Source: Chitinophaga pinensis (lineage in GTDB: Bacteria > Bacteroidota > Bacteroidia > UBA4408). From it: a stretch of 64,000 bases of DNA. The notes under the pieces are model-generated. The model saw only the letters and a program-made list of their open reading frames with translations. It ran no database searches and was not told the DNA's origin. The DNA lies in NCBI GenBank assembly GCA_945872355.1, contig CAMBZU010000006.1, positions 1-64,000 on the forward strand. The letters run 5' to 3'. The translations under genes and the position numbers were made by a program. Shown here piece by piece: positions 35,865 through 52,900 of the stretch (its first letter is position 1; each line of letters begins with the position of its first letter).

Positions 35865-37277
35865 TTAATAATTCATGTTTAACACACCAAAAGAATATTC
35901 AGCTTCTAGTGCTGCTTTTTTTGTTTTGTTAATGAGCTCATTTAATTTTAATTGGGCATTAATATAGCTCATTTCTCGACTGTTAATCATGAACAAAGAT
36001 GTTTCGCCTGCATCATATAATCGTTTTTCTGATTGCCATAAGCGCTCGTAATTATTTACATTTTTACCGTAAATTGTTACTTGATTTTTATAATTATTAA
36101 ACTCATTGATTGACGCCCTTGTTTTATTCAATAATTCTATTCGTTTGTTTTTAATTTCGTAGTTGTTATTTTCTATTTTTATTCTGGTTAATTGCAAATC
36201 GCCTCTTTCTTTCCTCAATAAAATTGGAAACCCAAGCGAGAAGCCCCATTTGTAATTGTTTTGATAAGCCAAGTTTAAGTTTTCTGCATCATATAAAGGA
36301 TTAAAATTTGCATTCAAAGTTGGCTTTAGTTTATCCTTTTTAAACTTCTCTTCAATACTTAATTGTTTTAATTTAAAATCATAAATCCTTAAACTTGGAT
36401 GTGAATTAATTAAGCTATCCATATGCGTGGCGCTTAAATTTGCGATAGTTTCTTGCTCAATATTATCTTTAATAGTTTGCGGCACGGTGCTATTGGTAAT
36501 TTCAACAGGTGTTTCATTTTCAATCCATAAATAGTTTGATAACAACAAAGATTTTGTTCTGTAATCCATGAATGCTTGCTGTAAATTAATGATCCTGTCT
36601 TGCAGCTGAATATTTGCTTCAACAGTGTCAATAGCAGGCCTATCGCCCAGTACAAAGGTTCTTGTTACAGCGGTAAAACGTTTTTCACTTAACGCAACTG
36701 CTTCTTGATGTACTTTTAAATTTACGAAAGATAAATACCAATCCCAATATGTTTTTCCTGCGCGATAAAGCAATTCATTGAGTATATTTATTTTCTCAAA
36801 TGCTGATAGCTCTTTAAATACTTTTGCTTGTTTAAGGGTAGCTCTTCTTTCATCTATAATTAAACCCTGCAAAAGCGGAAATGAAATTTGAGAATAAAAC
36901 AAACCTTGTTTAGGCATAATGTTTTCAGGATTCAAATAAGTTCCGTTGTTTTGTTCGTAACCCGCTTTAAAATCTACACCAAACCATGTTGGAACATTAA
37001 AACCTCCATTACCTAAAGCATAGTAATTTTTATTGTCGTAAAATTTGTTTTTAAAATCATAAAATAATTTAGGATCAAAGGCGCCTCTTGCCATCAAAGT
37101 TTTTGCATCTGCCGATGTTGCTATTAATTCTGCCTGCTTTGCTAAGGGGTGAAACTGCTTCACCATTTGTAAGAAATTTGCAAAACTTAATTCACGCAAC
37201 GAGTCATTTTGTGCATGAACTGTGCACGAGAAAAGGAATAGAATTATAAAAAAGCTAAATTTATTTCTTGCTATCAT
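35865..37277 (-). CDS. TolC-family outer membrane efflux protein
   Basis: The track frame starts at 37358, but the ATG at 37277 begins a clean signal peptide (MIARNKFSFFIILFLFSCTVHAQ) and overlaps the HlyD gene by only 17 bases, so I use it (470 residues). The mature protein has the two TolC repeats with long helices (for example NKRIELLNKTRASINEFNNYKNQVTIYGKNVNNYERLW read in parts) and beta segments (YKWGFSLGFPILLRKERGDLQL, typical of outer-membrane efflux proteins). It would form the outer-membrane channel of the exporter encoded upstream. It is the last of four minus-strand genes: TetR, ABC, HlyD, TolC. Confidence 0.88.
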   Translation of the reverse strand: MIARNKFSFFIILFLFSCTVHAQNDSLRELSFANFLQMVKQFHPLAKQAELIATSADAKTLMARGAFDPKLFYDFKNKFYDNKNYYALGNGGFNVPTWFGVDFKAGYEQNNGTYLNPENIMPKQGLFYSQISFPLLQGLIIDERRATLKQAKVFKELSAFEKINILNELLYRAGKTYWDWYLSFVNLKVHQEAVALSEKRFTAVTRTFVLGDRPAIDTVEANIQLQDRIINLQQAFMDYRTKSLLLSNYLWIENETPVEITNSTVPQTIKDNIEQETIANLSATHMDSLINSHPSLRIYDFKLKQLSIEEKFKKDKLKPTLNANFNPLYDAENLNLAYQNNYKWGFSLGFPILLRKERGDLQLTRIKIENNNYEIKNKRIELLNKTRASINEFNNYKNQVTIYGKNVNNYERLWQSEKRLYDAGETSLFMINSREMSYINAQLKLNELINKTKKAALEAEYSFGVLNMNY

Positions 37278-38628
37278 CTGACTTATTGTGTTTTGTATTG
37301 TCTGTTTTATGCACATAATAGTCGGGAGGAAAACCATTAATTTGCCTCCATAATTCATACCATACAGGCACTTCCTTAAGAAAGGTTAATGTATTTGCAC
37401 CAGCGCCCAAACGTATTTCTTTTGGCCAAGCCGGGTAATCTTTATCGCGAGCCACCAGCACTCTATATTTTCCATTTTCACTTATAAAATTATCTATAGC
37501 TACAATTGTTCCGCCATAAGTACCGTAGGATATGCCTGGCCAACCTGAAAACACAACTGCAGGCCAGCCATCAAATAACAATTGAACATGCTGCCCTTTG
37601 TTTAACAGTGGAATATCCATTGGATTAACATACATTTCTACTGCTAGCTCATAATCGTAAGGCATAATACTAATAATCTCAGCCCCTTCTTTAATTGTTT
37701 CACCAATACCTGATTGAATGGCCTTTGTGATGTAGCCGTCTTGTGGCGCTAAAATGTAATACATGCCAGATCGAATAGTATAGTTTACAAATTGATTTTG
37801 CAATTTCGAAACAAGTGCTTCAGCATCATACATGTTCGACATAGATGTATATTTATCAGATTCTGATTTTGCAATTTTATCATTATAGTCGGCATTGATA
37901 CTTTGCAATTCTATTTTAGCATTCAGCACCTCATTTTTACTTCCAATAAATTTATTTTCTTGCGATATTAATTTAGCTTGTGTTTCCTGTAATTTCTGTT
38001 TTCTGGCTTCTAAATCTGTTAATGATTTAAGGCCTTCTTTATGCAACTCTTCCATCCTCACAAGCTGATCTTTTGCTATTTTATAATTTAACGCTGAAGC
38101 AGAATAATCAATACTATCGCTCTGTACTTTTAAGTTGGCCTGTATTAATTTGTTCTTGGCTTGCTCAAGTTTTAATACCCTCGATTTTATTAATGCATCA
38201 ATTTGAGTATCGTTCGCATTCACTTTTTCAAAATAAGATTTAACAGTCAATTCTTTTGCTTTTAGCTGCTGTTCAGTATTTTCAACCAATTTTGGATCGA
38301 GGTATTCTTCTTTTGTTTCACTTATAAAAAGAATCGTATCCCCTTGTTTAACAAATTGGCCTTCTTGCACATACCATTTTTCAATTCTTCCGGCAATTAT
38401 TGAATGAATATTTTGCGGGCGTTGGTTAGGCTTTAAAGCTGTTACATTGGCCATGGACCTGATATTTTGTGTCCAAGGTAAAAAAAGTACAACCAAACAA
38501 ATAAAGCCTAACACGTAAAGTGTTTTAATTAATTTACGGCTAATTGAGCGCGCATTTAAAATTTGAAAAGACTTCAAATTATTTAATGCTTTCTTATCTT
38601 TTATTGTATTATGAGTTATGTTAAGCAT
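37261..38628 (-). CDS. HlyD-family membrane fusion protein
   Basis: This is a 455-residue periplasmic adaptor. A cytoplasmic N-terminus precedes one transmembrane helix (LYVLGFICLVVLFLPW, about 37-52). A biotinyl-lipoyl-like segment follows (IAGRIEKWYVQEGQFVKQGD), then a long coiled coil (about 120-275), the second lipoyl half (YYILAPQDGYITKAIQSGIGE) and a beta-barrel (PMDIPLLNKGQHVQLLFDGWP). It would bridge the ABC protein in the inner membrane and the TolC-like channel. It starts 15 bases downstream of the ABC gene and overlaps the TolC start by 17 bases. The C-terminus is a short basic tail (HNKSDDSKK). Confidence 0.93.
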   Translation of the reverse strand: MLNITHNTIKDKKALNNLKSFQILNARSISRKLIKTLYVLGFICLVVLFLPWTQNIRSMANVTALKPNQRPQNIHSIIAGRIEKWYVQEGQFVKQGDTILFISETKEEYLDPKLVENTEQQLKAKELTVKSYFEKVNANDTQIDALIKSRVLKLEQAKNKLIQANLKVQSDSIDYSASALNYKIAKDQLVRMEELHKEGLKSLTDLEARKQKLQETQAKLISQENKFIGSKNEVLNAKIELQSINADYNDKIAKSESDKYTSMSNMYDAEALVSKLQNQFVNYTIRSGMYYILAPQDGYITKAIQSGIGETIKEGAEIISIMPYDYELAVEMYVNPMDIPLLNKGQHVQLLFDGWPAVVFSGWPGISYGTYGGTIVAIDNFISENGKYRVLVARDKDYPAWPKEIRLGAGANTLTFLKEVPVWYELWRQINGFPPDYYVHKTDNTKHNKSDDSKK

Positions 38629-38643
38629 GTGAATTTTTTTGAG

Positions 38644-40302
38644 CTATTGTTTGGAAATTTGTCCATCATTCATGTATAAAACTATATCTGATTTTTCCTT
38701 TAAATAAGCATTGTTTGAAATACTGATTAAAGTCCAGTTATTTGTTTTATCAGTTAAAAAATCAATAATTTTATTTCTTTCATTTTCTGCAATAAAATCA
38801 ATATGATTTTCGAGCAAAATGAGTTTGGGTTTATTTACAATACTTCTGGCAATAATTATTTTTTGAATAATACTTTTTGACAGTTTATGTCCTGAAATTT
38901 CTATCTGCGTATCAATTCCTTTAGGCAATTCCTTCACATAATCTAATAAATAAACTTGTTCAATAGCCCATTGTACATCGGCTGTTTTTATAAAATCTCT
39001 ACCTAAAGTAATGTTCTCAATGAGCGTTCCTTCAAATATATTTTCTTCTGCTAAGCCGTTACCAATAAATTTATACAATTCAAAAATATTATAATTTCCA
39101 ATGGGCAAATCATTGATACAAACACAGCCCGAAAGAGGTTGATACAATCCCGCAATTAAATGAATAAGTGTTGATTTTCCTGAACCATTATTTCCAATAA
39201 TACAATAAGAGTTATTTGCCTTAAAACTATAATTAATATCCTTAAGCACTGATTTTACTCTGCCAGGATATGTAAATGACAAATCCTTTACTTCAACTGT
39301 TATTGGCGCCGTAATTTGATGATTTAAGGATGAAGAAGGATGATCATTTTCAAGTTCTAAATCTGTTACTTGACCTATCTTTTCTAAAGAAGAAAGAATA
39401 TCAAATACATTTTCGAGATTTAAAATAATTTTTTCTGAGGAATCAATCACCAACAAAATTATTATTTCTGCGGCCACAAACTGACCAATATTCATTTGTT
39501 GATCAAGCACCAACATACCGCCTACAATCAATAATCCAAAAGCCACTATTATTTTAAATATGAGTAATAAAATATATTGCTTTTTAAGAATTTGAAAATG
39601 GTTTTCTCTAGATTCTAAATAACCAGTAACATGCTCATCAGTTCTTAATTCGGGCAAACTGGTTAATCCTGCCAACTTAAATGTATCTTTAGATCTTGCT
39701 AACTCCTCAAGCCAAGAAACAACTTTATACTTGTATTTTGATTCCTTTAAGCTTGTTTCTAATCCTTTTTTTGTAGTGAATTTTATGATGCTAAAAACAA
39801 GCACAATAAGTAAAATACTAAACAAGATAAAAAATGGATGATAAAGTGATAAGAGGATTAAGCCAAAGATAATTTGAAGCACTGCTGTTGAAAAATCAAT
39901 AATTATTTTAGATAAACTTTTTTGCAAAGTCAATACATCAAAAAAACGATTCATTAACTCGGGCGCATAGTGCTTATATATTTCTTCAAATTTAATTTTA
40001 GGAATTCTATAGGTAAAATCAAAAGCTGCACGCGTAAATATTTTTTGTTGTATTGTTTCGGTAATGCGCATTTGCATTAATTGCATGTAGCCACCCATGG
40101 CAATGCCTGTAATTACTATTCCTACCAGCAAAAGCCATGAAGCAGAAACACTACCTCCTTGTATTAAATTAATAATTGATTGAATACCAATAGGAAGTGA
40201 AAGTGCTATCACGCCTTTAAAAAAGGCATAAGTATAAACTTGATAAATTTCCTTATTATCGGGCTTCAACAGAAGCCAAAATCGTTGGTATGGTGTTTTC
40301 AT
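38644..40302 (-). CDS. ABC exporter with membrane domain and degenerate ATPase domain
   Basis: This 552-residue half-transporter has six membrane helices in residues about 20-300 and a nucleotide-binding domain from about 330. Walker A is intact (GNNGSGKST, about 369-377), but other motifs are not canonical. The Q-loop glutamine is missing (FIGNGLAEENIFEGT), the LSGGQ signature reads ISGHKLSKSII, Walker B reads LILLENH where LLLDE is expected, and the H-loop histidine is replaced by Asn (LISISNNAY). There is no C39 peptidase domain. It lies between the TetR gene (3-base gap) and HlyD (15 bases). The substrate is unknown. The degeneracy may be a conserved trait of a Bacteroidota subfamily or loss of activity. 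Confidence 0.9.
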   Translation of the reverse strand: MKTPYQRFWLLLKPDNKEIYQVYTYAFFKGVIALSLPIGIQSIINLIQGGSVSASWLLLVGIVITGIAMGGYMQLMQMRITETIQQKIFTRAAFDFTYRIPKIKFEEIYKHYAPELMNRFFDVLTLQKSLSKIIIDFSTAVLQIIFGLILLSLYHPFFILFSILLIVLVFSIIKFTTKKGLETSLKESKYKYKVVSWLEELARSKDTFKLAGLTSLPELRTDEHVTGYLESRENHFQILKKQYILLLIFKIIVAFGLLIVGGMLVLDQQMNIGQFVAAEIIILLVIDSSEKIILNLENVFDILSSLEKIGQVTDLELENDHPSSSLNHQITAPITVEVKDLSFTYPGRVKSVLKDINYSFKANNSYCIIGNNGSGKSTLIHLIAGLYQPLSGCVCINDLPIGNYNIFELYKFIGNGLAEENIFEGTLIENITLGRDFIKTADVQWAIEQVYLLDYVKELPKGIDTQIEISGHKLSKSIIQKIIIARSIVNKPKLILLENHIDFIAENERNKIIDFLTDKTNNWTLISISNNAYLKEKSDIVLYMNDGQISKQ

Positions 40303-40305
40303 TTG

Positions 40306-40983
40306 TTATTTTTTTAAAGATTTCAAAGCCATATTAATATAGAAATCACTAATATAATCGGGCGACTTTTGTTTATTGGTAAGGCGTGGCAAATGCGCGG
40401 CAAAGAAAACCTGCAAGTGAGCGCCCTCAATTATAGTTGTTAATAGCATTTGAGGATATTTATAATTTGGGTTTATCTCCTTTATAATTTCGGCCATGCG
40501 AGAAACAAATTGCTTGTAATTTAAATAGGCGCCTTCCTTGTTAGCAATATCAACATCTTTAGTTAAATATGACTTTATTGATTCAGAAATAATAATTTGA
40601 TGAAGCTTACTGATATTGATGCCTTCAATAAATAAATTGTCCTTTTTATTGGAGGTAATTAATAGGATTGATTTTTCTAATCTTACTTGAGCAGAACTAA
40701 TATTTGTAGTTTCAAAAACCAACCGATATTCCATCCAACCCCAATACCAAGAAATTAAGTATGAGAGGAGTTGATTTTTACTTTTGAAATATCTATAAAT
40801 TGAAGCTTCGGGCGAACCAATTTGCATGCCCAATTTTTTAAATGTAAATTTTTCAAATCCAATTTCGTTAATCATATCAACGCTACTAGCTATAATTTTA
40901 TCTCCTAACTTACTGCTCGAAGGGTCGATTTGAAATAAACCTTCACTAATCTTAATTTTAAAATTTGATAATAAAATATCCAT
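40306..40983 (-). CDS. TetR-family transcriptional regulator
   Basis: This 225-residue protein has a TetR-type helix-turn-helix near its N-terminus (IASSVDMINEIGFEKFTFKKLGMQIGSPEASIYRYFKSKNQLLSYLI, seen in two short stretches at about 31-78) and an all-helical ligand-binding C-terminal domain. It is the first gene of the exporter operon, 3 bases before the ABC gene, and probably represses the operon until the exported or toxic compound binds. The -7/-33 elements are not clear upstream. Auto-regulation is inferred from position. Confidence 0.88.
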   Translation of the reverse strand: MDILLSNFKIKISEGLFQIDPSSSKLGDKIIASSVDMINEIGFEKFTFKKLGMQIGSPEASIYRYFKSKNQLLSYLISWYWGWMEYRLVFETTNISSAQVRLEKSILLITSNKKDNLFIEGINISKLHQIIISESIKSYLTKDVDIANKEGAYLNYKQFVSRMAEIIKEINPNYKYPQMLLTTIIEGAHLQVFFAAHLPRLTNKQKSPDYISDFYINMALKSLKK

Positions 40984-41202: not shown

Positions 41203-41766
41203 TTAAGCAGCTAAAATTCTTTCAATGGTCCAATAAACAGCTATGCATGCAATGACTGATGAAATTGGCAAAACAATGCGATTGCTGTACCATGATTTAT
41301 GTGCAAACTGCTTGGTGATAAAAATATACAAAGCCATAATGATAGTAATTTGGGCCAATTCAACACCCAAGTTAAAAGAAATCAAAGACAATAAAAAATT
41401 GTTTTGAAGCATTCCTGTTTCTTTTAATGCACTTGCAAAACCTAATCCATGAATCAATCCAAATATAAATACAATAAGCAAGCTGTACTTTATGTTGGGA
41501 GTTTTTACAATATTTTGAAGTGCAGTAATCAAAATAGAAAATGCAATTAAAGGCTCTATGATTGCACTTTGAGTGGCAACAAAACCAGCAGCACTTAATC
41601 CCAGCGTAATGCTATGTGCCACTGTAAATGCAGCGCATTGTTTAACTATTGATTTAAGTGTATTGCTTAAAAAATAAATGCTTATAATAAAAAGGATATG
41701 ATCAAAACCAAATGGGATAACATGTGCATAGCCAAGCAGGGTAAACTTTTCAATATTTTGAAACAT
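41203..41766 (-). CDS. HupE/UreJ-like membrane protein
   Basis: This 187-residue protein has about six hydrophobic helices and fits the HupE/UreJ family. Conserved His-containing segments are visible: YAHVIPFGFDHILFIISIY (about 12-31) and FTVAHSITLGLSAAG (about 47-61), and FGLIHGLGFASALKE with a further His (about 103-117). HupE/UreJ proteins are metal (nickel/cobalt) or hydrogenase-linked permeases, but many homologues lie in other contexts. No signal peptide is seen. It is the last gene of a minus-strand operon with three T9SS-exported proteins (gap of 14 bases), so it is likely to serve the same process, possibly metal handling. Confidence 0.86.
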   Translation of the reverse strand: MFQNIEKFTLLGYAHVIPFGFDHILFIISIYFLSNTLKSIVKQCAAFTVAHSITLGLSAAGFVATQSAIIEPLIAFSILITALQNIVKTPNIKYSLLIVFIFGLIHGLGFASALKETGMLQNNFLLSLISFNLGVELAQITIIMALYIFITKQFAHKSWYSNRIVLPISSVIACIAVYWTIERILAA

Positions 41767-41780
41767 CTAATAAATTAAAA

Positions 41781-42962
41781 TTAGTTTTTAATCAACTTAA
41801 TAGTGATGATTGAATTGTCTATTATTCTCAAGAAATATATCCCATTTTCTAGTTGACTAAAATCATGCATTTCAATAATTTGCCCACTGTAAATAATAGA
41901 TCCTGTTAGATTTATTAATTCGAAAATTTCATTTCCTGTGCTATTAATAATACGCAGGTAATTACTGAAAGGATTGGGAAAAAGTCTTTGTGTGATTGAT
42001 TTTGCAGTTGAAATGGCAGTTGAACTTTGATTGCTTCTTACACAAATGAGATTGTGTTTTACAGTTTTATTATCATAGGTGGTAATTCCAAACTGAGTAT
42101 TTAAATACCATGCTTTGGCTGTTTGATTTGGAAGTGTAGTTGAAGACCAATACTTATTTACATTGGTAACATTAAAATAAGTTGAATTGATGGATGGATT
42201 GATGCGCGTTTCATCGTTTAACGACTGCAATTCTTTGATATTAGGTAATCGCCAATCATTAAAACCTGCTGTGGTTAAAGTATCAGCGTAAGTGAGCGAT
42301 TGTTCCCATGAAAGCGAATCGCTGAAGGGGGCCTTTTGCCAAATTAAATCAGTTAAGTGATCTGTGATGGTGTTATTTCCATTGTCTGTATATTGATTGG
42401 GAATAGCTACCGGAGCAATGGCATCTCTAACTGCTCTTACATGAAACTTTTTGGGTCCTCCTGCACTTATTGTTTCTGATTTGGGATGGTTACCAATACC
42501 CCCACCAGCATTTGTAGCCCATACTTTAGAACTATCATTGGCCTGTCGATCGCTGGTCCACCAATATTCAGCGGCAGTTGTTGTAAATACTTGCACAATA
42601 AGCGCAGGATTAACCAACTGATGATTTAAGATACTGAATGCTTCATGCGCATTTGGCAAGCGCCAATTATTGTAATTCCCTAAAGTAAGTGTATCACAAT
42701 AAATAGTAGCATTTTCAATTGTCATTTCACCTCCATCTAACTTTTGCCAAACCAATCCAGTAATTGAATCGATAACAGTGCCATTGTTGTTTTGTATGAA
42801 CAGTGGTGGATATATGTTAAAGTCATTATCTTCACCAAATGTTGTGGTATAACTTACTATTTGACCCGTATCCGGAAGTCGCAACATCGATTTATAAACC
42901 GTTTGTGCCTTTATTTGTAAACTATAAAAAAACAGTGCTAAGATTGATATTTTATATTGCAT
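41781..42962 (-). CDS. Secreted DUF1566 protein with T9SS sorting domain
   Basis: This 393-residue protein has a signal peptide (MQYKISILALFFYSLQIKAQ) and two DUF1566 (Lcl C-terminal) units: GLVWQKLDGGEMTIENA with NNWRLPNAHEAFSIL (about 68-112), and DLIWQKAPFSDSLSWEQ with FNDWRLPNIKELQSL (about 205-250). The C-terminal ~80 residues form a T9SS type A sorting domain (LFPNPFSNYLRI and NGIYFLRIIDN, ending IKLIKN), so it is exported to or past the cell surface. Its ATG overlaps the stop of the preceding gene (TAATG), showing translational coupling. DUF1566 domains are carbohydrate- or surface-related; the exact role is unknown. Confidence 0.9.
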   Translation of the reverse strand: MQYKISILALFFYSLQIKAQTVYKSMLRLPDTGQIVSYTTTFGEDNDFNIYPPLFIQNNNGTVIDSITGLVWQKLDGGEMTIENATIYCDTLTLGNYNNWRLPNAHEAFSILNHQLVNPALIVQVFTTTAAEYWWTSDRQANDSSKVWATNAGGGIGNHPKSETISAGGPKKFHVRAVRDAIAPVAIPNQYTDNGNNTITDHLTDLIWQKAPFSDSLSWEQSLTYADTLTTAGFNDWRLPNIKELQSLNDETRINPSINSTYFNVTNVNKYWSSTTLPNQTAKAWYLNTQFGITTYDNKTVKHNLICVRSNQSSTAISTAKSITQRLFPNPFSNYLRIINSTGNEIFELINLTGSIIYSGQIIEMHDFSQLENGIYFLRIIDNSIITIKLIKN

Positions 42963-44206
42963 TATTGCTTAATAATTTTTTCGGTGATTTGATTTTCCCT
43001 GCTTATAATTTTTAAGGTATAAATCCCATTTGGCAAGCCATCTAAAGAAATTTGATCAACAAAATGAGTTGCTATAAATACTTGCTCACCAATTACATTT
43101 TCAAGAATTATTTGTATTACCTCTTGCTGCGCTATGGCAGATTCGAATTTAATATAAATGGAATTATTTGCAGGGTTTGGATAAACATGGCACTTGTTTT
43201 TTGATGGAGAAACATGGCTAAGTGAGGTAGGTGCTGGAACAGTGTAAGTAACAACAACTTCATTGTCTAAAATTAAATTAGTGCTCCAAATAAATTGAGC
43301 ATCTTGCACTGGATCATCAAAAATATTTGTAAAATTTGTGTATGCAGGTTTGTTATTTACACCAACCGTTTGATTGCTATAAATACTTGCTTGAGGGAAC
43401 ACGGCATCATTAAAATTACTATCCATCCAATCAAGGGGTTTCGACCAATGCAAAGCATAATAATTAGTGCCATCATTAGCATCTGCTGTACTGCAATTAT
43501 TTGAAAGTCTTTGATTGCCATTTTCTGTTGGACAATTTAAGTCGGTAATTGGCGCTGTATAAAAGCTTTGTGCTTTCCAATTTTGGTTGGTGATTGCTAC
43601 TGTATTATTAGAAGTATCCTTAAAAACTGTAACAATTCCCCCATCGCCCATGTGATATGGAATTGTGTTATTAACCTCACAGCCAATTCCCAAATACTCT
43701 TCCCAATCTACAAGTAGCATAGCAATTTTAAATGGCTTTTGAACTCTAAAACGAACAATATTAGAATTAAATTCAGTGTAGGGCACATTGTCCTTGCCAA
43801 CCGGCACACCATTGATATATAATTCAAAATAATTATCAGCAAAAATGTAAGCTGTAATTAATTCACCTGTTGAATCTATAGTAATAATATCATTGCCATT
43901 TAGGGCTGCTAATGCTGCATTGGCATTTGTATAATTAGCTCCTACGCAAGCATTATATAAATTTGATGCAAAAGGGAAATTAGCATTTAAATAATTTACC
44001 TCTGCGGGCATTGTCCATACAGAAGCATCAGTTGCCGTAACTATGCCAACATTGGGAATTCTACCATTTGGGCAACTATAAATATTTGCATTGGTAATAC
44101 TGCCTATCCCTTGCGATACCGTTCCTGAGCCATTGTATTGTGCAAAAACATCAAGTTGAAAAAGCATTAAAGAAAGTACTAATGGTGTTGTAAAATTTAA
44201 TTTCAT
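42962..44206 (-). CDS. Secreted protein of unknown family with T9SS sorting domain
   Basis: This 414-residue protein begins with a signal peptide (MKLNFTTPLVLSLMLFQLDVFAQ). The middle is beta-rich with ITAYIFADNYFELYINGVPVG and FKIAMLLVDWEEYLGIGCEVN, recalling a jelly-roll or PA14-like binding domain, then a region with paired cysteines (DLNCPTENG, SNNCSTAD). I do not recognise the family. The C-terminal 80 residues are a T9SS type A sorting domain (VYPNPANNSIYIKF and GIYTLKIISREN, ending EKIIKQ). It is 10 bases downstream of the YHYH gene and overlaps the DUF1566 gene by one base. It is probably a surface protein of the same operon. Confidence 0.85.
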   Translation of the reverse strand: MKLNFTTPLVLSLMLFQLDVFAQYNGSGTVSQGIGSITNANIYSCPNGRIPNVGIVTATDASVWTMPAEVNYLNANFPFASNLYNACVGANYTNANAALAALNGNDIITIDSTGELITAYIFADNYFELYINGVPVGKDNVPYTEFNSNIVRFRVQKPFKIAMLLVDWEEYLGIGCEVNNTIPYHMGDGGIVTVFKDTSNNTVAITNQNWKAQSFYTAPITDLNCPTENGNQRLSNNCSTADANDGTNYYALHWSKPLDWMDSNFNDAVFPQASIYSNQTVGVNNKPAYTNFTNIFDDPVQDAQFIWSTNLILDNEVVVTYTVPAPTSLSHVSPSKNKCHVYPNPANNSIYIKFESAIAQQEVIQIILENVIGEQVFIATHFVDQISLDGLPNGIYTLKIISRENQITEKIIKQ

Positions 44207-44216
44207 ATTGACCTTA

Positions 44217-45851
44217 TTAATGCACGATAAACTTTTGATTTATGCTATTTCCATCAGTAAAATCAAGGTGCAATAAATATAATCCATTATTTAAATTATT
44301 GAATTCCATTGGAGATTGGTAATTATTTGCTTCAAAAATGAGTTCCCCTTTAATGCTATAAATAGCTATTTTATTCACTTTTTTACCTTGTAAAACTGTG
44401 CTTAATTTAAGTTGGAAATTTCCATTATTTGGATTGGGAAAAATGAATGCTTCGGCTTGTATAACATAATCATTGCTTAGTGAAGAAATTACGGGAACTG
44501 TGCATTGAATAAATCCGTTATTTACAATTTTAGTTGAATCCAACACACCATTGTTATAATACTTGAAAGTATATTGCCCATTGTTTGTCCAGTTATACAC
44601 AACAGAATCTATAAAACCACTGCGCGTGTAAGTGAGGTTGTATCCGTTATTGCTGCTATTGGAGGTGCATGATGTTATAACAGCTCCATTTAAAGGTGTT
44701 AGTGCTTGTCTTACGGGATGCGCTGCAGCCTGCGGAATGAGCTGATGACTAGCATCCTCGGTAACATTGCCAACCATTTTTGCAATCATATAAGGAGCCG
44801 ATTGTGTGCCATGATAATGATAAACACCATTGAATGAATGTCCGTGATTTGCATCTAATGTTAACATTGCATTACCATCAGGTTCAACATTTCCATAAAC
44901 AGCAAATCCATCTAAACCATATGCAATGGGTTTATTAGCTGCAGTGTAACTATATAAATGCAATGGTGCAGTGTGATAATGATAATCATCAGCCCTACCA
45001 CAATGGCCCCCGAAATTATCTAATTGACCATCAACATATGAATCTACACCTGTATTGGTATGTACATTAAAGATAGGCACACCATTAACTGCAATAGCAA
45101 TTGCGCCTCTGGTAAAATGAATAGTATCAACAGGAATTGGAGTAGCTGCTATAGTTGGATTAAGCGGTATTGGCCAAGCATTTGCACCAATATAACATTG
45201 TGGAATTGGAACCTGTTGCTGCCAACCATGATTAGAAATCCCCACCATCATTTCATGTGTAGCCGGAATTCCTTTTGATTCAACATAAAAATAATTGGAA
45301 TCCCAAAAAGTATTAATGACAGGTTTAAAAGGTGAAAAGGCAGAATCGATAGCAAGCGGATCGCTCATACTGCGAAGTGATTTTACTACTTTTATAGAGA
45401 AACTCAGCAATGCGGTACTCATTGAAACCAATAAAACAGGAATAATAAATTTTCTTTTAGCTTTATCAGTATAAATAAATGTGAAAAAACTTAAAGCTAA
45501 GATAAACACAAATACAATGCCTATTTTTTGATTGAACAAAGGCTCAGAAACATTACTATTATTGGCATTTGAGACCAGTTGTTCATTTAACTTGGCAATG
45601 TTTGCATATTTTTTAATCGCAAATTGCTGATCGGTTTTAGTTAGCAAGCTCATTGGAAATGCCCATACTTTTTGATTGGCATCTTCAATATAAACCAAGT
45701 TATTTTTTAACATGGTAAAGGAGCCCTCAATTACTTGCTTTTGGTTTTTTAAATGCCACTGATGTAGGGCAACTTTTTCATAATTACTGTTATGCGCAAA
45801 AATAACAATGTTGGCTATGCATAGCGCAATAAGTAAGATAATTTTCTTCAT
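44217..45851 (-). CDS. YHYH protein with N-terminal SHD1-like domain, membrane helices and T9SS sorting domain
   Basis: This 544-residue protein starts with a signal peptide (MKKIILLIALCIANIVIFA). Residues about 26-90 resemble an SHD1-like domain (HQWHLKNQKQVIEG, then KVWAFPMSLLTKTDQQFAIKK). Two hydrophobic helices follow (about 112-127 and 136-153). The core is a YHYH domain with ADDYHYHTAPLHL (about 289-301), a second YHYHG at about 342, and YGLDGFAVYGNVEPDG. The final 80 residues are a T9SS type A domain (FIFPNPNNGNF, GLYLLHLDFTDG, ending NQKFIVH). The histidine-rich YHYH motifs suggest metal binding. The membrane helices in a T9SS-sorted protein are odd. It lies 10 bases upstream of the next gene, in the HupE operon. 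Confidence 0.87.
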   Translation of the reverse strand: MKKIILLIALCIANIVIFAHNSNYEKVALHQWHLKNQKQVIEGSFTMLKNNLVYIEDANQKVWAFPMSLLTKTDQQFAIKKYANIAKLNEQLVSNANNSNVSEPLFNQKIGIVFVFILALSFFTFIYTDKAKRKFIIPVLLVSMSTALLSFSIKVVKSLRSMSDPLAIDSAFSPFKPVINTFWDSNYFYVESKGIPATHEMMVGISNHGWQQQVPIPQCYIGANAWPIPLNPTIAATPIPVDTIHFTRGAIAIAVNGVPIFNVHTNTGVDSYVDGQLDNFGGHCGRADDYHYHTAPLHLYSYTAANKPIAYGLDGFAVYGNVEPDGNAMLTLDANHGHSFNGVYHYHGTQSAPYMIAKMVGNVTEDASHQLIPQAAAHPVRQALTPLNGAVITSCTSNSSNNGYNLTYTRSGFIDSVVYNWTNNGQYTFKYYNNGVLDSTKIVNNGFIQCTVPVISSLSNDYVIQAEAFIFPNPNNGNFQLKLSTVLQGKKVNKIAIYSIKGELIFEANNYQSPMEFNNLNNGLYLLHLDFTDGNSINQKFIVH

Positions 45852-45876
45852 TTCCTTGTGCTTTAATTTGATGTTT

Positions 45877-46128
45877 TTAAATGGATAATTTTATTAGATT
45901 TTGAAATTCCGGCAATGTATTTATAGTTTGCAGTTGAGGATTTGAAAAAGTATCAATAACTAATTCAATTTCAAATACAGCGATATGAATATCATTTTTT
46001 ACACTCACACTTGTTGATCCAACACCTCTACTTGCTGATTCAAAAGGTTCAATCAAACTCCAGCTTTCAAAACCATCATTGGGCATACTTTGGGAATTTA
46101 CTTGACGCATTAGCTGTGATGAAAGCAT
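45877..46128 (-). CDS. Short leading frame of the YHYH operon, possibly a truncated secreted protein
   Basis: This 83-residue frame lies 25 bases upstream of the YHYH gene. Its sequence includes SMPNDGFESWSLIEPFE (about 14-30), which resembles the opening of many secreted Bacteroidota proteins ('PNGGFENW'). In frame upstream of the ATG, the sequence KITKNFLTSLMLSSQ would look like part of a signal peptide but has no start codon. It may be a real short gene, or the remnant of a longer secreted protein. Confidence is low and there is no recognised domain. Confidence 0.35.
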   Translation of the reverse strand: MLSSQLMRQVNSQSMPNDGFESWSLIEPFESASRGVGSTSVSVKNDIHIAVFEIELVIDTFSNPQLQTINTLPEFQNLIKLSI

Positions 46129-46180
46129 TAAAGAAGTAAGGAAATTTTTTGTTATTTTTAATTTGTTGTTTTGTATTACA

Positions 46181-46394: not shown

Positions 46395-46988
46395 ATGCTT
46401 AATCACATAGAAGGAAAATTAATTGAAAAATCACCTGCCCACGTTGTAATCGACTGCAATGGAATGGGATATACTTTAAATATTTCTTTAAACACTTACT
46501 CTAAATTACAAAAAGTTGACGAAAAAGTAAAATTACTTACCCATGTTTCGGTCAATCAAAACGATTTTACGCAAACAGGCTTTGGTTTTTTTGAAGAAAG
46601 TGAACGTGTACTTTTTCGTCAATTAATTTCTGTTTCTGGCGTTGGTTCAGCCGCTGCACGCATGTTTTTATCGAGCTACAACCCTTTGGAATTAACACAA
46701 CATATTATCAATGGAAATGTGGGCGCACTCAAAAATGTTAAAGGGATAGGCGAAAAAACAGCGCAACGCATCATTGTTGATCTAAAAGCAAAGGTTGGAA
46801 AAAATGAGGCCTTGCCTGATTTTAGCTTCAATCCACACAATAAAATGAGAGAGGAAGCGTTAAGTGCTCTTGTAATGTTAGGATTTGTAAAAAATACAGC
46901 CGAAAAAGCGGTTGACAAAGCCATTGCCCAATTAGATAATAATGCGGCTGTGGAAGACATTATTAAAGTTGCTTTAAAATCGCTGTAG
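46395..46988 (+). CDS. ruvA: Holliday junction DNA helicase subunit RuvA
   Basis: This 197-residue protein binds Holliday junctions and loads the RuvB motor for branch migration. Domain I is MLNHIEGKLIEKSPAHVVIDCNGMGYTLNI (OB-fold, read in two pieces), domain II holds the two helix-hairpin-helix motifs (ISVSGVGSAAARMFL and VKGIGEKTAQRIIVDL), and domain III is the C-terminal helical part (REEALSALVMLGFVKNTAEKAV) that contacts RuvB. The length is normal. sprA starts 10 bases downstream, the usual ruvA-sprA order in Bacteroidota, so the two are probably co-transcribed. Confidence 0.97.
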   Translation: MLNHIEGKLIEKSPAHVVIDCNGMGYTLNISLNTYSKLQKVDEKVKLLTHVSVNQNDFTQTGFGFFEESERVLFRQLISVSGVGSAAARMFLSSYNPLELTQHIINGNVGALKNVKGIGEKTAQRIIVDLKAKVGKNEALPDFSFNPHNKMREEALSALVMLGFVKNTAEKAVDKAIAQLDNNAAVEDIIKVALKSL

Positions 46989-46998
46989 TATTAGTTTA

Positions 46999-49900
46999 GT
47001 GAGACCTTTAAAAAGTATAAATATAATATTGTTTTGTATAGTTGTACCAATGCTAGCCATAGTTTTTGGTGCTGCAACTGTTATAAAACCAATACACCGC
47101 TTTGCAAAGGCTCCAATACCGCCAGCAGATACTACCAAAAAAGAAAAACCAAGATTTCCTGGCACCGACAATAATTACGACCCTACTGATATTGACCCCA
47201 ATCAAACCTTACAATTAAAAGATCCTATTAATTTAAAAACTGATATTGAATACGATTTCCAAACTGGAAATTATGAATTTGATCAGAAGATGGGTGCTGT
47301 GAATTACAGAAATCCATCTTACATGACTTTCAAGGAATACATGGATTATGACATGGAAAAGCAGATTGACAATTACTGGAAACAACGTCATGAAGCCGAG
47401 AAAGTGAATGCCAGCAAGGGTTTGATTCCGAAAATCATGATTAACAACGAAACATTCGACCGTATTTTTGGTGGCAATACCGTTGATATCAGACCTCAAG
47501 GGGCAGCAGAGTTAATATTTGGTGTTAATACTTCGAGAACCCAAAACCCGGCCATAGCTGAAAATCAAAGAAAAATAAGCACTTTCGATTTCAATCAAAA
47601 AATACAAATTAACCTTTTAGGTAAAATTGGCGATAAGTTAAAAGTGACCACCAACTACAACACCGAAGCTGCTTTCGATTTCGAAAATCAAATGAAATTG
47701 GAATATACTGGCTATGAAGATGAAATTCTACAAAAAATTGAAGCAGGTAATGTTAACTTGCCATTAACAGGCTCGCTCATTACTGGTAGCCAAAGTTTAT
47801 TTGGCTTAAAGGCACAAATGAAATTTGGCAAAACAAATGTAACTACAGTATTTTCAGAACAAAGAGGAAAAAAGCAGGAAGTAAATGTGCAAGGAGGTGC
47901 GCAAATCCAAAGGTTTGAAGTAAATGGTGATAATTACGAAGCCAACCGTCATTATTTCTTATCACAATATTTTAGAGAAAGCTATGATACTGCTATGGCT
48001 AATTTGCCATTAATAGCTTCAAATATTAACATCACCAAAATAGAAGTATGGGTAACAAATTTAAGTGGAGCAGTTGATAATACCAGAAACATAATTGCAT
48101 ATACCGATTTAGGGGAATCAAGAAGAACAAGTGATCCAAGTAATCCGGCCAACCAAAATAAAACTTGGTATGCCGATCAATTTATTGACCCTCCAGTTGG
48201 CGCAAATTCAGGCCCATATCCATCTAATCAAGGCTCAAACAATTTATACACAAAGCTAACCACACCTGGTGGTTTCGATAGTATAAGAAGTATTTTTCAA
48301 GCATCAAGCATTTTATCAGTCTACAATTCAGGTGCTGACCCCGCTTTTTCTCCAGTTAGAGATTATGAAATTCTTGAAAATTCAAAACGACTGTTACCTA
48401 CCGAATACACCTTTAACCCGCGTTTGGGCTTCATATCACTTAACCAATCATTAAACAACGGTGAGGTTTTAGCAGTAGCCTATCAATACTCCGTTGGAAG
48501 TGCTACCTATCAAGTTGGAGAGTTTTCAGTTGATGGAATTGCAGCGCCTAGAGCTTTGTTCGTTAAATTATTAAAACCATCAAATGTGCGCGTGAAACTG
48601 CCAATTTGGGATTTAATGATGAAAAATGTATACTCTATTGGTGGTTATAATATTGATGTAAAAGATTTCAAACTTGAATTGTATCATGCCAATCTGCAAA
48701 GAGGTGTTGATTTGAATTACATTCCTGAAGGCGCTGTAAACAAAAAAATATTGATTCAGGTATTAGGGATGGATAAAATCAATAATCAATCAGAAAGAAT
48801 TCCCGATGGTTATTTCGATTTTATTGACGGTTTAACCATTAACAAATCCAATGGCAGGGTTTATTTCCCTGTGATTGAACCTTTTGGAAGTTATCTAAGA
48901 GCTCAATTTGCTGCTAATGAGCAATCCATTGCCAACAAATATGTTTTTCAAGAACTTTATGACTCTACAAAAACAGCAGCCCAGCAAATTCCTTCTAAAA
49001 ATCGTTTTAAAATTAAAGGTCAATACTCTTCTGCTTCGGGCTCCGACATTTCTTTAAACGCAACCAATATTCCACAAGGCTCGGTTACAGTTACAGCAGG
49101 CGGCGCTGTGTTGCAAGAAAATATTGATTACACCATTGATTATTCATTGGGCAGGTGTAAAATAATTAATGAAGGTGTGCTGGCATCTAATCAACCAATT
49201 AAAGTGCAACTTGAAAGCCAAAGTTTATTTAACATTCAAAGAAGAAGGATGTTGGGAATGCACTTTGACCATAAGGTAAATAAAGATTTTACACTAGGTG
49301 GAACTATCATTAATTTAAGTGAACGACCATTAACCCAAAAGGTAAACATGGGCGATGAGCCAATTAATAACACGATTTGGGGACTAGATGCCAACTATAA
49401 AACAGAAGTTCCTTTTCTTACACGTTTAGTTGATAAAATTCCATTTATCGATACAAAAGAAAAATCAACAGTTACACTGCAAGGTGAATTTGCACATTTA
49501 ATTCCCGGACATAATAAAGCTGTTACAAAAGAAGGCAATTCTTATATTGATGATTTTGAAGGTAGTCAAGCATTGATTGATATTAAAGCAGTGCAAAATT
49601 GGAGTTTGGCAAGTATTCCACAAGGCCAACCCGATCTTTTTCCTGAAGCATCACTAAGCAACGATTTAAGAATTGGAATGAACCGTGCTAAATTCTCGTG
49701 GTATGTGATTGACCCATTATTTTTTAGAAGTAACAGTTTAACGCCCGACCATATTAAAAATGATTTAGTATCGCAAAGCAATCACTTTACTCGAGAAATT
49801 CTTGAAACTGAAATTTTTCCAAACAGAACACCTCAAAATTCGCAAATAACCAATTTACCAGTATTAGACCTTGCATTTTATCCCAATGAAAGAGGACCTT

Positions 49901-52900
49901 ATAATTATGATGTAAACCCTACTGCTTTTTCGGCAGGACTAAAAATAGATGGCGGCCTTGAAGCACCAAGTACAAGATGGGGCGGCATGATGCGCAAGAT
50001 TGATAATACCGATTTTGAAACTACAAATATTGAGTATATTCAGTTTTGGTTAATGGATCCCTTTAATGAAGATAACACAACGCCAAATACAACTGGTGCT
50101 TTATATATTAATTTAGGAGATGTAAGTGAAGATATTCTTAAAGACTCAAGAAAATCTTTTGAAAATGGTTTGCCAATTGGCGCAACCATTCCGGACCCTA
50201 ATTTATATGACAGTACAAAATTTGGCATTGTGCCAGTGGTGCAGCAAGTGGTGAATGCATTTGATAACAATCCCGAATCAAGAAAATTCCAAGATGTTGG
50301 TTTAGATGGGCTAGGTAACGATAATGAAAGAACATTTTATGACACTACCTATGTTTCTAAAGTTGTAAATAAATTTTCTGCCGCCAACTCGCAAGCGCCC
50401 GCAATTTTAAAAGCACAAAGTGACCCTTCTGCCGATGACTTTAAATATTTTAGAAGTAGTGCTTTTGATGCCGAGGAAGTGCCTGTTTTAGAGCGTTACA
50501 AAAACTTTAGAGGTTTAGAGGGCAACTCTTCCGTCGACCAGCCCGATGGCTATCCAATTACCTCAACTACATTGCCAAATGTGGAAGACATAAACCGTGA
50601 TAATAATCTTACCTACAACGAAGCATACTATCAATACAAAGTAAAAATTGACCCTAACAGTATGCAGGTTGGTCAAAATTATATTACTGATGTGTTGAAT
50701 GCAACAGTGCAAACAAAAAATGGTCCGCGTTCAATAAAGTGGTACCAATTTAAAGTGCCATTAAGAAGCCCCGAAAAGGTTGTTGGTGGTATTGCAGATT
50801 TTAGATCTATCCGATTCATGCGTATTTATTTAAAAGGTTTCGACCAACCTGTTGTTTGTCGATTTGGCCGTTTAGATTTAATTAGAGGCGATTGGAGAAA
50901 ATATATTTATGATTTAAGATATCCTGGAGAATATATTCAACAAGACAATCAAAGTCAAACAGAATTTGAGGTTGCAGCTGTAAATATTGAAGAAAATGGC
51001 AACAGGGTGCCTATTAATTATGTTGTACCTCCCGGAATTAAAAGGGTAATTGATCAGAGTACAACAAACTTACGTCAATTGAATGAACAATCTTTAGTGC
51101 TAAAAGTTTGTAATTTGCAGGATGGTTATAGCAAAGCTGCCTACAAAAATTTATCTATCGATGTGAGAAGATACAAGCGTTTAAAAATGTTTGTACATTT
51201 AGAAGCAAGAGGCGATGAGGCTGCATTAAAAAAAGAAGATTTACGTTTCTTTATGCGTATTGGTACCGACTTTGACCAAAATTATTATGAATACGAAATG
51301 CCTGTTACACCAACTGCTTGGGGAAATAACGACCCAAATGCAATTTGGCCTACAGATAATGATTTAGAAATTGTTTTTAAAAATCTAACCAATGCAAAAT
51401 TAGATAGAAATGTAAAGAACAAAGATGTTACAGTGCCCTACCGAATTAAAGATACTGAAAGCACTTATCCTGATAGATATATAACAGTAGTTGGAAACCC
51501 GAATTTAGCAGCTGTTAAAACCATTATGGTAGGTATAAAAAATCCCAAGAAAAGCACCCCTTCCGATGCCGATGATGGTGCGCCTAAATGTGCTGAAATG
51601 TGGGTTAATGAATTGCGATTAACTGATTTTGATGAGAAAGGTGGTTTTGCAGCAACAGCTCGAATTCAAGCTAAATTAGCTGATTTTGCAGATGTTAGTG
51701 CCTCTGGAAATTGGCGCACACAAGGGTTTGGTGGTGTAGAACAAAAAATTATGGAGCGCAGCACAGACAATATGCTTTCCTATGAGGTATCCTCTACAGT
51801 TAAACTTCAAAAATTCTTTCCAGAAGCCTATAATATTTCACTTCCAATGTATGTAGGCTTATCTGAAACTTTTATTAATCCGCAATGGAACCCATTGGAC
51901 CCAGATGTAACAATGAAGGATTACAAAGAGGTTTATCAAGTTTTTCCAGAACAAAAAGATTCAATTGTAAATATAACACGCGATTATACCAAGCGAAGAA
52001 GCATCAATTTTACCAATGTTAAAAAGAACAAAGGCAAAGGCAAGAGCAAAACCCATATTTATGATGTTGAAAATTTCTCCTTAAATTATGCCTACAGCGA
52101 AATTTACAGAACTAGTTTTTTAATTGAAGCTGATAGCACAATTAATTACAGAGGAGGCGTTGCATATAACTTTAACAACAATCCAAAAAACTTTAAACCT
52201 TTATCTAAAATTGGTTTTTTAAAAAATGATGCCTTTAAAATAATAAGTGATTTTAATTTTAATTTAATGCCTTCTCGTATTGGTGTACGCACCGATTTTG
52301 ATAGAATGTACAATGTAAATAAACCAAGAAATACAACACCAAATTCAGATATAATAATTTTACGCAACTATAATAAATCATTTACCAATACACGTAATTA
52401 TGATTTTAAATACGATTTAAGCAAGGCCATTGCTTTTGACTTTACAGCCACTACTAATGCACGTATTGATGAAGTAGCCGGCAAAAGATGGAAAGACTTT
52501 AATGGCCCTAATGATGCAGATACGGTAAAAATTATTCGCGATTCTTTAAATAGCAATCTTAAAAACTTTGGCAGGATGACCAATTATCATCAAACCTCAA
52601 ATATTAATTGGAATGTGCCTATCAATAAATTACCATTTTTAAATTGGATAACAGCAACTGCAAAGTATGCTGGAAATTATGATTGGATAGCTGCAACCCC
52701 TGCTCCTGCAAGCTTTAATTTAGGAAATACAATTTCTAACTCCAATAACAAGCAAATTAATGGTAATATAAATATGGTATCATTGTATAACCGTGTGCCC
52801 TATTTTAAAAAGGTAATTAGTGGTAAAAAAACACCCCCTAAAGCAGCAGCAAAAAAGGAAGATAAGAATAAACCAAAAACAGAAAAAGAGGAAGAAAAAG

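Follow-up and report, generated by a model that had tools for sequence, protein, structure and literature searches.

What do four tightly packed genes do for a Bacteroidota bacterium when they combine proteins tagged for the cell surface with a permease? The question is raised by a 64,000-nucleotide stretch of Chitinophaga pinensis (assembly GCA_945872355.1, contig CAMBZU010000006.1, positions 1 to 64,000; hereafter the window), in which four minus-strand open reading frames (ORFs) follow one another with gaps of +10, -1 and +14 bases. An initial annotation had put them forward as a possible surface metal-handling operon. In our judgment there is about an even chance that this quartet forms the core of a conserved envelope cluster of Bacteroidota that captures a copper-like transition metal and delivers it by a histidine-site/HupE route. 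Copper is the most likely metal, while nickel or cobalt would be possible. The four genes are:

44217-45851, minus strand: YHYH2, 544 amino acids (aa), with a signal peptide, an N-terminal His domain, a transmembrane (TM) hairpin, a YHYH domain and a type IX secretion system (T9SS) sorting tail
42962-44206, minus strand: P414, 414 aa, beta-rich and of unknown family, with a signal peptide and a T9SS tail (residues 341-414)
41781-42962, minus strand: DUF1566/Lcl_C protein, 393 aa, with a signal peptide and a T9SS tail (residues 327-393)
41203-41766, minus strand: HupE/UreJ-2 permease-like protein, 187 aa, lacking the extension with signal peptide and N-terminal His that its closest homologs have

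ORF calling and Pfam searches confirmed the genes, coordinates, spacing and family matches that the initial annotation had given. YHYH2 matches the YHYH family PF14240 with 43.3 bits (cut-off 25; 36 bits in a genome-wide search), the DUF1566 protein matches Lcl_C/DUF1566 (PF07603) with 166 bits and HupE matches HupE_UreJ_2 (PF13795) with 138 bits (cut-off 24.5). The three predicted T9SS tails were likewise recovered, as Por_Secre_tail (PF18962) scores above its cut-off on YHYH2, P414 and the DUF1566 protein, and the TIGR04183 sorting domain scores 30.3, 34.3 and 34.5 bits, respectively (cut-off 23). In a sequence search of the PDB, YHYH2 was matched through T9SS tails only and HupE gave no match.

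A search with YHYH2 through 395 genomes of the class returned 14 loci including the window (~4% of the sampled genomes), the other proteins being 41-58% identical over nearly the full length, together with a shorter relative in genome G030 and more distant YHYH proteins. The genes recur on one strand in the order metallophosphoesterase b, metallophosphoesterase a, YHYH2, P414, DUF1566, HupE, with some losses and local rearrangements. Co-directional with YHYH2 are DUF1566 at 11 of the 14 loci, P414 at 9 and at least one metallophosphoesterase at 9. In more than 10 genera YHYH2 has P414, DUF1566 or both as neighbors, and two metallophosphoesterases and HupE are often there as well. P414 homologs occur in 12/395 genomes, mostly inside the YHYH2 cluster; in G260, P414-DUF1566-HupE is found at a contig end. 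HupE is present at 5/12 YHYH2 loci with long enough contigs, or at 4/11 without the window. With HupE in 151 of the genomes (38%), the chance of finding it within 6 kb is ~0.14% per locus, and at that rate 4/11 adjacencies have a probability of the order of 1e-9 (hand arithmetic). The four-gene cluster is real and recurrent in Bacteroidota, and HupE is an optional member of it. The genes thus belong together, as first proposed, and are not scattered independently among relatives, although HupE is facultative. We found no description of this gene set in the open literature.

Of the two YHYH proteins that the genome encodes, the 458-aa YHYH1 lies on contig 26 and matches PF14240 in full (~195 bits); the other is the 544-aa YHYH2 of the window. 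Both share the YHYH motifs and the set of invariant His and Asp residues of PF14240, a family that also takes in the YHYH domains of phage tails. Nevertheless, YHYH1-type proteins score 190-200 bits against this model and YHYH2 only 43, and YHYH2 differs further by its N-terminal His domain and its TM hairpin. On sequence grounds, YHYH2 is a distinct YHYH subfamily. Its parts are:

45795-45851, minus strand: signal peptide, residues 1-19 (hydropathy peak 1-19; putative cleavage site ...IVIFA|H)
45792-45794, minus strand: codon of His20, the predicted N-terminal residue after cleavage, present in 14/14 orthologs
45567-45794, minus strand: small beta-rich N-terminal domain, residues 20-95, with invariant His20 and Trp32
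45393-45524, minus strand: TM hairpin, residues 110-153, with a positively charged loop
44472-45344, minus strand: YHYH domain region, residues 170-460, with two YHYH motifs
44220-44444, minus strand: T9SS C-terminal sorting domain, residues 470-544

In every one of the 14 aligned YHYH2 sequences the hydrophobic signal segment ends with a small residue, Ser in two and Ala in the others, directly followed by a histidine, while the ~10 positions following His20 are variable. His20 and Trp32 are invariant, and so is a dense core in the YHYH domain, including His199, 283, 291, 293 and 347 as well as Asp278, 288, 289, 314 and 333 in full-protein numbering. A free N-terminal histidine is the classic ligand of the histidine brace and a hallmark of such metal sites. 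In an AlphaFold model built on a shallow alignment (5 rows), residues 30-66 are predicted to form ~4 strands with a predicted local distance difference test (pLDDT) score of ~70-80, followed by a helix and the TM hairpin. A homolog of the N-terminal domain that stands alone in G098 (L113:6999-7418), outside any such cluster, has a terminal TM segment and lacks the N-terminal His, so this residue is not universal to the fold. For the YHYH domain itself, a His3/Asp metal site and a metal-dependent hydrolase activity have been predicted in phages (PMC7824862), the sole item on YHYH function that we found in the literature.

The N-terminal histidine of YHYH2 is best considered together with HupE. 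Among close HupE homologs outside the YHYH2 cluster, mostly from TPR/DUF4331 neighborhoods, 14/16 carry a signal peptide followed by His, compared with 0/6 HupE proteins of the YHYH2 cluster (Fisher p 0.0004). At YHYH2-cluster loci the N-terminal His sits on YHYH2 instead. A precedent is provided by the anglerases described in 2025, whose N-terminal-His domains are fused to HupE/UreJ-2 and bind Cu2+ experimentally, Ang-2 with an affinity of 62 nM, while Ang-1 binds Ni2+ too (PMC12537917). Both systems have in common a signal peptide followed by an invariant His and a HupE/UreJ-2 (PF13795) partner, and the metallophosphatase neighbors reported for Ang-2 (PMC12537917) recall the metallophosphoesterases beside YHYH2 in relatives. 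On the other hand, the anglerase His domain and HupE/UreJ-2 form one protein, whereas they are separate genes at every locus seen here. The anglerase domain is a beta-sandwich of ~150 aa, whereas the His domain of YHYH2 spans ~75 aa plus a TM hairpin with no sign of a sandwich in the low-confidence model. Unlike in anglerases, it is fused to a YHYH domain and a T9SS tail. The host ranges differ as well: Ang-1 is found in Pseudomonadota, Ang-2 in Actinomycetota and YHYH2 in Bacteroidota. Compared with the fused anglerases, the His/HupE arrangement thus looks split between two polypeptides, and from this partition and the adjacency of the genes we infer that YHYH2 and HupE may cooperate. The best reading of the comparison would be that the cluster represents a split, Bacteroidota-style variant of the anglerase-HupE idea.

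The histidines within HupE had also been offered as a clue to metal. An alignment of homologs gives His15, Asp22, His23, His51, His106 and Glu136 as invariant; these residues are family-wide, and we rejected a His-rich HupE as a special feature of this locus. Separately, HupE also occurs in a second conserved Bacteroidota unit (L087-L104; e.g. L088:966-5187), which consists of one or more T9SS-tailed DUF4331 proteins, a ~445-aa TPR protein and a HupE/UreJ-2 that has its own signal peptide and N-terminal His; genes for a small protein and a TonB-receptor-like protein often come next.

All three tailed proteins had been assigned to the surface on account of T9SS; the tails stand, while the hairpin of YHYH2 had been overlooked. 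Its two strong TM segments (110-128 and 135-153) enclose the positively charged loop and are helices in the predicted model too. With the signal peptide cleaved, the His domain and the YHYH domain would both be periplasmic and anchored in the inner membrane. The anchor conflicts with the T9SS tail, making plain T9SS export of the whole protein doubtful: a type A cargo is expected to pass through a soluble periplasmic intermediate, which fits P414 and the DUF1566 protein, neither with an inner-membrane anchor, and does not fit YHYH2 with its hairpin. In the divergent orthologs at L073 and L074, the T9SS tail is absent and a lipobox-like Cys ends the second TM segment (LAAC, ILAC); the neighboring P414 proteins at these loci look like lipoproteins too. 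These features suggest that the YHYH part may be cut free at the second TM segment. A bolder proposal, which we regard as possible though somewhat unlikely, is that YHYH2 is a two-part polyprotein whose second TM segment serves as an internal signal peptide. One product would be an inner-membrane N-terminal-His protein that gives metal to HupE or accepts it, the other a YHYH metalloprotein destined for the outer membrane or surface. Absence of the tail together with a lipobox-like Cys in L073 and L074 is as this proposal predicts. In the relative at L075 the His and the YHYH domain are present and the TM hairpin is missing. At this locus (G030, L075:698-4825) the YHYH relative is flanked by an EF-hand/PEBP protein on one side and an EF-hand metallophosphoesterase on the other, and a distant relative of P414 is encoded upstream.

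A connection to copper is suggested by a second gene set, with which the YHYH2 block is contiguous in G214 (L063), G333 (L067), G372 (L068) and G264 (L072). It comprises a T9SS multicopper oxidase, a sulfatase, YHYH1, a 294-aa T9SS protein and thioredoxin/redoxin genes, not all at each locus, and includes MbnP and MbnH at L063 and L068. Metal_resist/LTXXQ-type genes were found at L067, L069 and L083, at L067 together with an extracytoplasmic function (ECF) sigma factor. The genome of the window carries an oxidase-sulfatase-YHYH1-294-thioredoxin-redoxin set on contig 26. CueO is the top NCBIfam hit of this oxidase, with 364 bits, below the 525-bit equivalog cut-off. In the window itself one feature recalls the island:

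45910-46155, minus strand: remnant of the 294-aa T9SS protein gene, its N-terminal 82 codons, a decayed copy

The 82 residues are 61% identical to the intact protein on contig 26, and the fragment precedes YHYH2 just as the intact gene does in L063. The window block therefore carries a trace of the island in the form of a truncated remnant. An 83-aa ORF at 45877-46128 was considered as a fifth small gene and rejected as a pseudogene fragment of the same protein. Of the interval 41203-46128 that had been assigned to the operon, the part covering the four genes stands and this last ORF drops out.

YHYH1 has copper-type company of its own. At 15/25 loci from 60 relatives MbnP lies within 5 kb of YHYH1, with MbnH directly adjacent in most, and the probability of this by chance is negligible. 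Among the neighbors in relatives, MbnP matches PF20243 with 152 bits, above the cut-off, while the scores for TIGR04039 (MbnH; 211 vs 363 bits) and TIGR04052 (35 vs 140) stay below the equivalog cut-offs. MbnP/MbnH pairs of methanobactin operons were described with a possible, unproven role in copper homeostasis, and the loosely similar CorA is a surface protein for copper that copper itself represses (PMC3621798, PMC3912023). MbnP/MbnH (CorA/CorB, MopE-like) are comparable to the present system as genomic partners of YHYH1 and the larger cluster, in their copper context and in the surface or periplasmic place of the partner protein. The window, however, contains no homolog, and the three MbnP genes of the genome are on other contigs. 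As a separate observation, MbnP/MbnH pairs of Bacteroidota are frequently joined by YHYH1 (PF14240) as a third member (L002-L025; e.g. L013, L016), of which we found no published mention. Short, more distant YHYH lipoproteins adjoin SCO1/SenC-type genes, as tested at L076 and alike by eye at L077-L079; ECF sigma and TonB-receptor-like genes are also present around L076.

Taken together, the early suggestion of metal handling survives on different grounds: the CueO-like oxidase, MbnP/MbnH, the ECF sigma/Metal_resist linkage and the invariant N-terminal His speak for it, and the HupE histidines no longer do. In the proposed route, removal of the signal peptide would leave a free N-terminal His on the small periplasmic domain of YHYH2, which the TM hairpin would hold in the inner membrane beside HupE. 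The His site would then give metal to, or take it from, the permease, a role in trans that matches the one in cis of the N-terminal His in a fused anglerase-HupE. The YHYH part, which has a multi-His site of its own, P414, the DUF1566 protein and, in relatives, the two metallophosphoesterases would reach the outer membrane or surface by their T9SS tails, the YHYH part perhaps after being cut off at the second TM segment.

Several observations weigh against this proposal. HupE is absent from 7 of the 12 evaluable YHYH2 loci, so a partnership in trans cannot hold everywhere, and direct linkage to the copper-associated island is confined to four relatives. The characterized HupE, that of Rhizobium, is a nickel permease (cited in PMC12537917), hence copper is not the default expectation. 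The predicted models, with mean pLDDT of 44 for YHYH2 and 37 for P414 (the latter from an alignment of 3 rows), resolve the N-terminal beta domain, the TM hairpin and the T9SS tails and are too poor to place a metal site or to fold P414; the metal-binding and transport roles are read from sequence. Finally, the phosphatases and sulfatases in YHYH2 neighborhoods fit ester hydrolysis. This last point leads to a different picture, a locus for scavenging esters at the surface, in which YHYH is a metal-dependent hydrolase, as predicted for the phage domain (PMC7824862), that acts, together with the T9SS metallophosphoesterases and the sulfatases, on polymers carrying phosphate or sulfate. Substrate binding would fall to DUF1566 and P414, and HupE would do no more than supply a cofactor metal. 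Most relatives do have two T9SS metallophosphoesterases ahead of YHYH2, several have sulfatases next to it, and the DUF1566 protein matches Lcl_C and, weakly, the adhesin Lsa25. The window nevertheless lacks both phosphoesterases, all matches to them there being T9SS tails, and the multicopper oxidase, MbnP/MbnH, Metal_resist and ECF sigma neighbors as well as the invariant His would be left unexplained. We regard ester scavenging as possible and somewhat unlikely.

Less likely still is an uptake or homeostasis system for nickel or cobalt, with HupE importing these metals and the surface proteins binding them. The HupE of the window shares with the Rhizobium permease the HupE/UreJ superfamily and conserved His/Asp in TM segments, Metal_resist/ECF genes occur near some relatives, and the Ni2+ binding of Ang-1 would fit. 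Yet the window protein belongs to PF13795 and not to PF04955, no hydrogenase or urease genes were noticed around it, and the linked genes are copper-type. Beside none of the loci did we notice a nickel or cobalt enzyme, NikR, a cobalamin gene or a riboswitch, though no systematic search for them was made. That the genes are merely T9SS cargo genes brought together by chance, sharing no function, we consider very improbable. Such genes are common, the SprA translocon gene is nearby and HupE, P414 and the phosphoesterases are each absent in some relatives. Against this, order and direction are kept across genera and HupE adjoins YHYH2 far more often than the chance rate given above.

Beyond the cluster, ruvA and then sprA (window 46395-54345; SprA, TIGR04189, 2647 bits) lie next to the T9SS cargo operon in divergent orientation, so some of the machinery that exports proteins with such tails is encoded here as well. 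On the other side, at window 35865-40983 on the minus strand, is an operon of a TetR regulator, an ATP-binding cassette (ABC) transporter, a HlyD-like adaptor and a TolC-like protein, probably for type-I-like export or efflux. We rejected it as part of the cluster, as 219 bp separate HupE from the start of the regulator and no such operon was seen at the loci of relatives.

YHYH, DUF1566, P414 and the Bacteroidota HupE are without an assigned role. The tie of YHYH to MbnP/MbnH and CueO-like oxidases, together with an invariant histidine beside HupE, turns them into a testable copper-type acquisition system. If the polyprotein proposal is true, YHYH2 would represent a new way of acquiring metal by a His-brace, split between two membranes. 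The cluster also suggests where to seek outer-membrane metal capture in bacteria with a T9SS.

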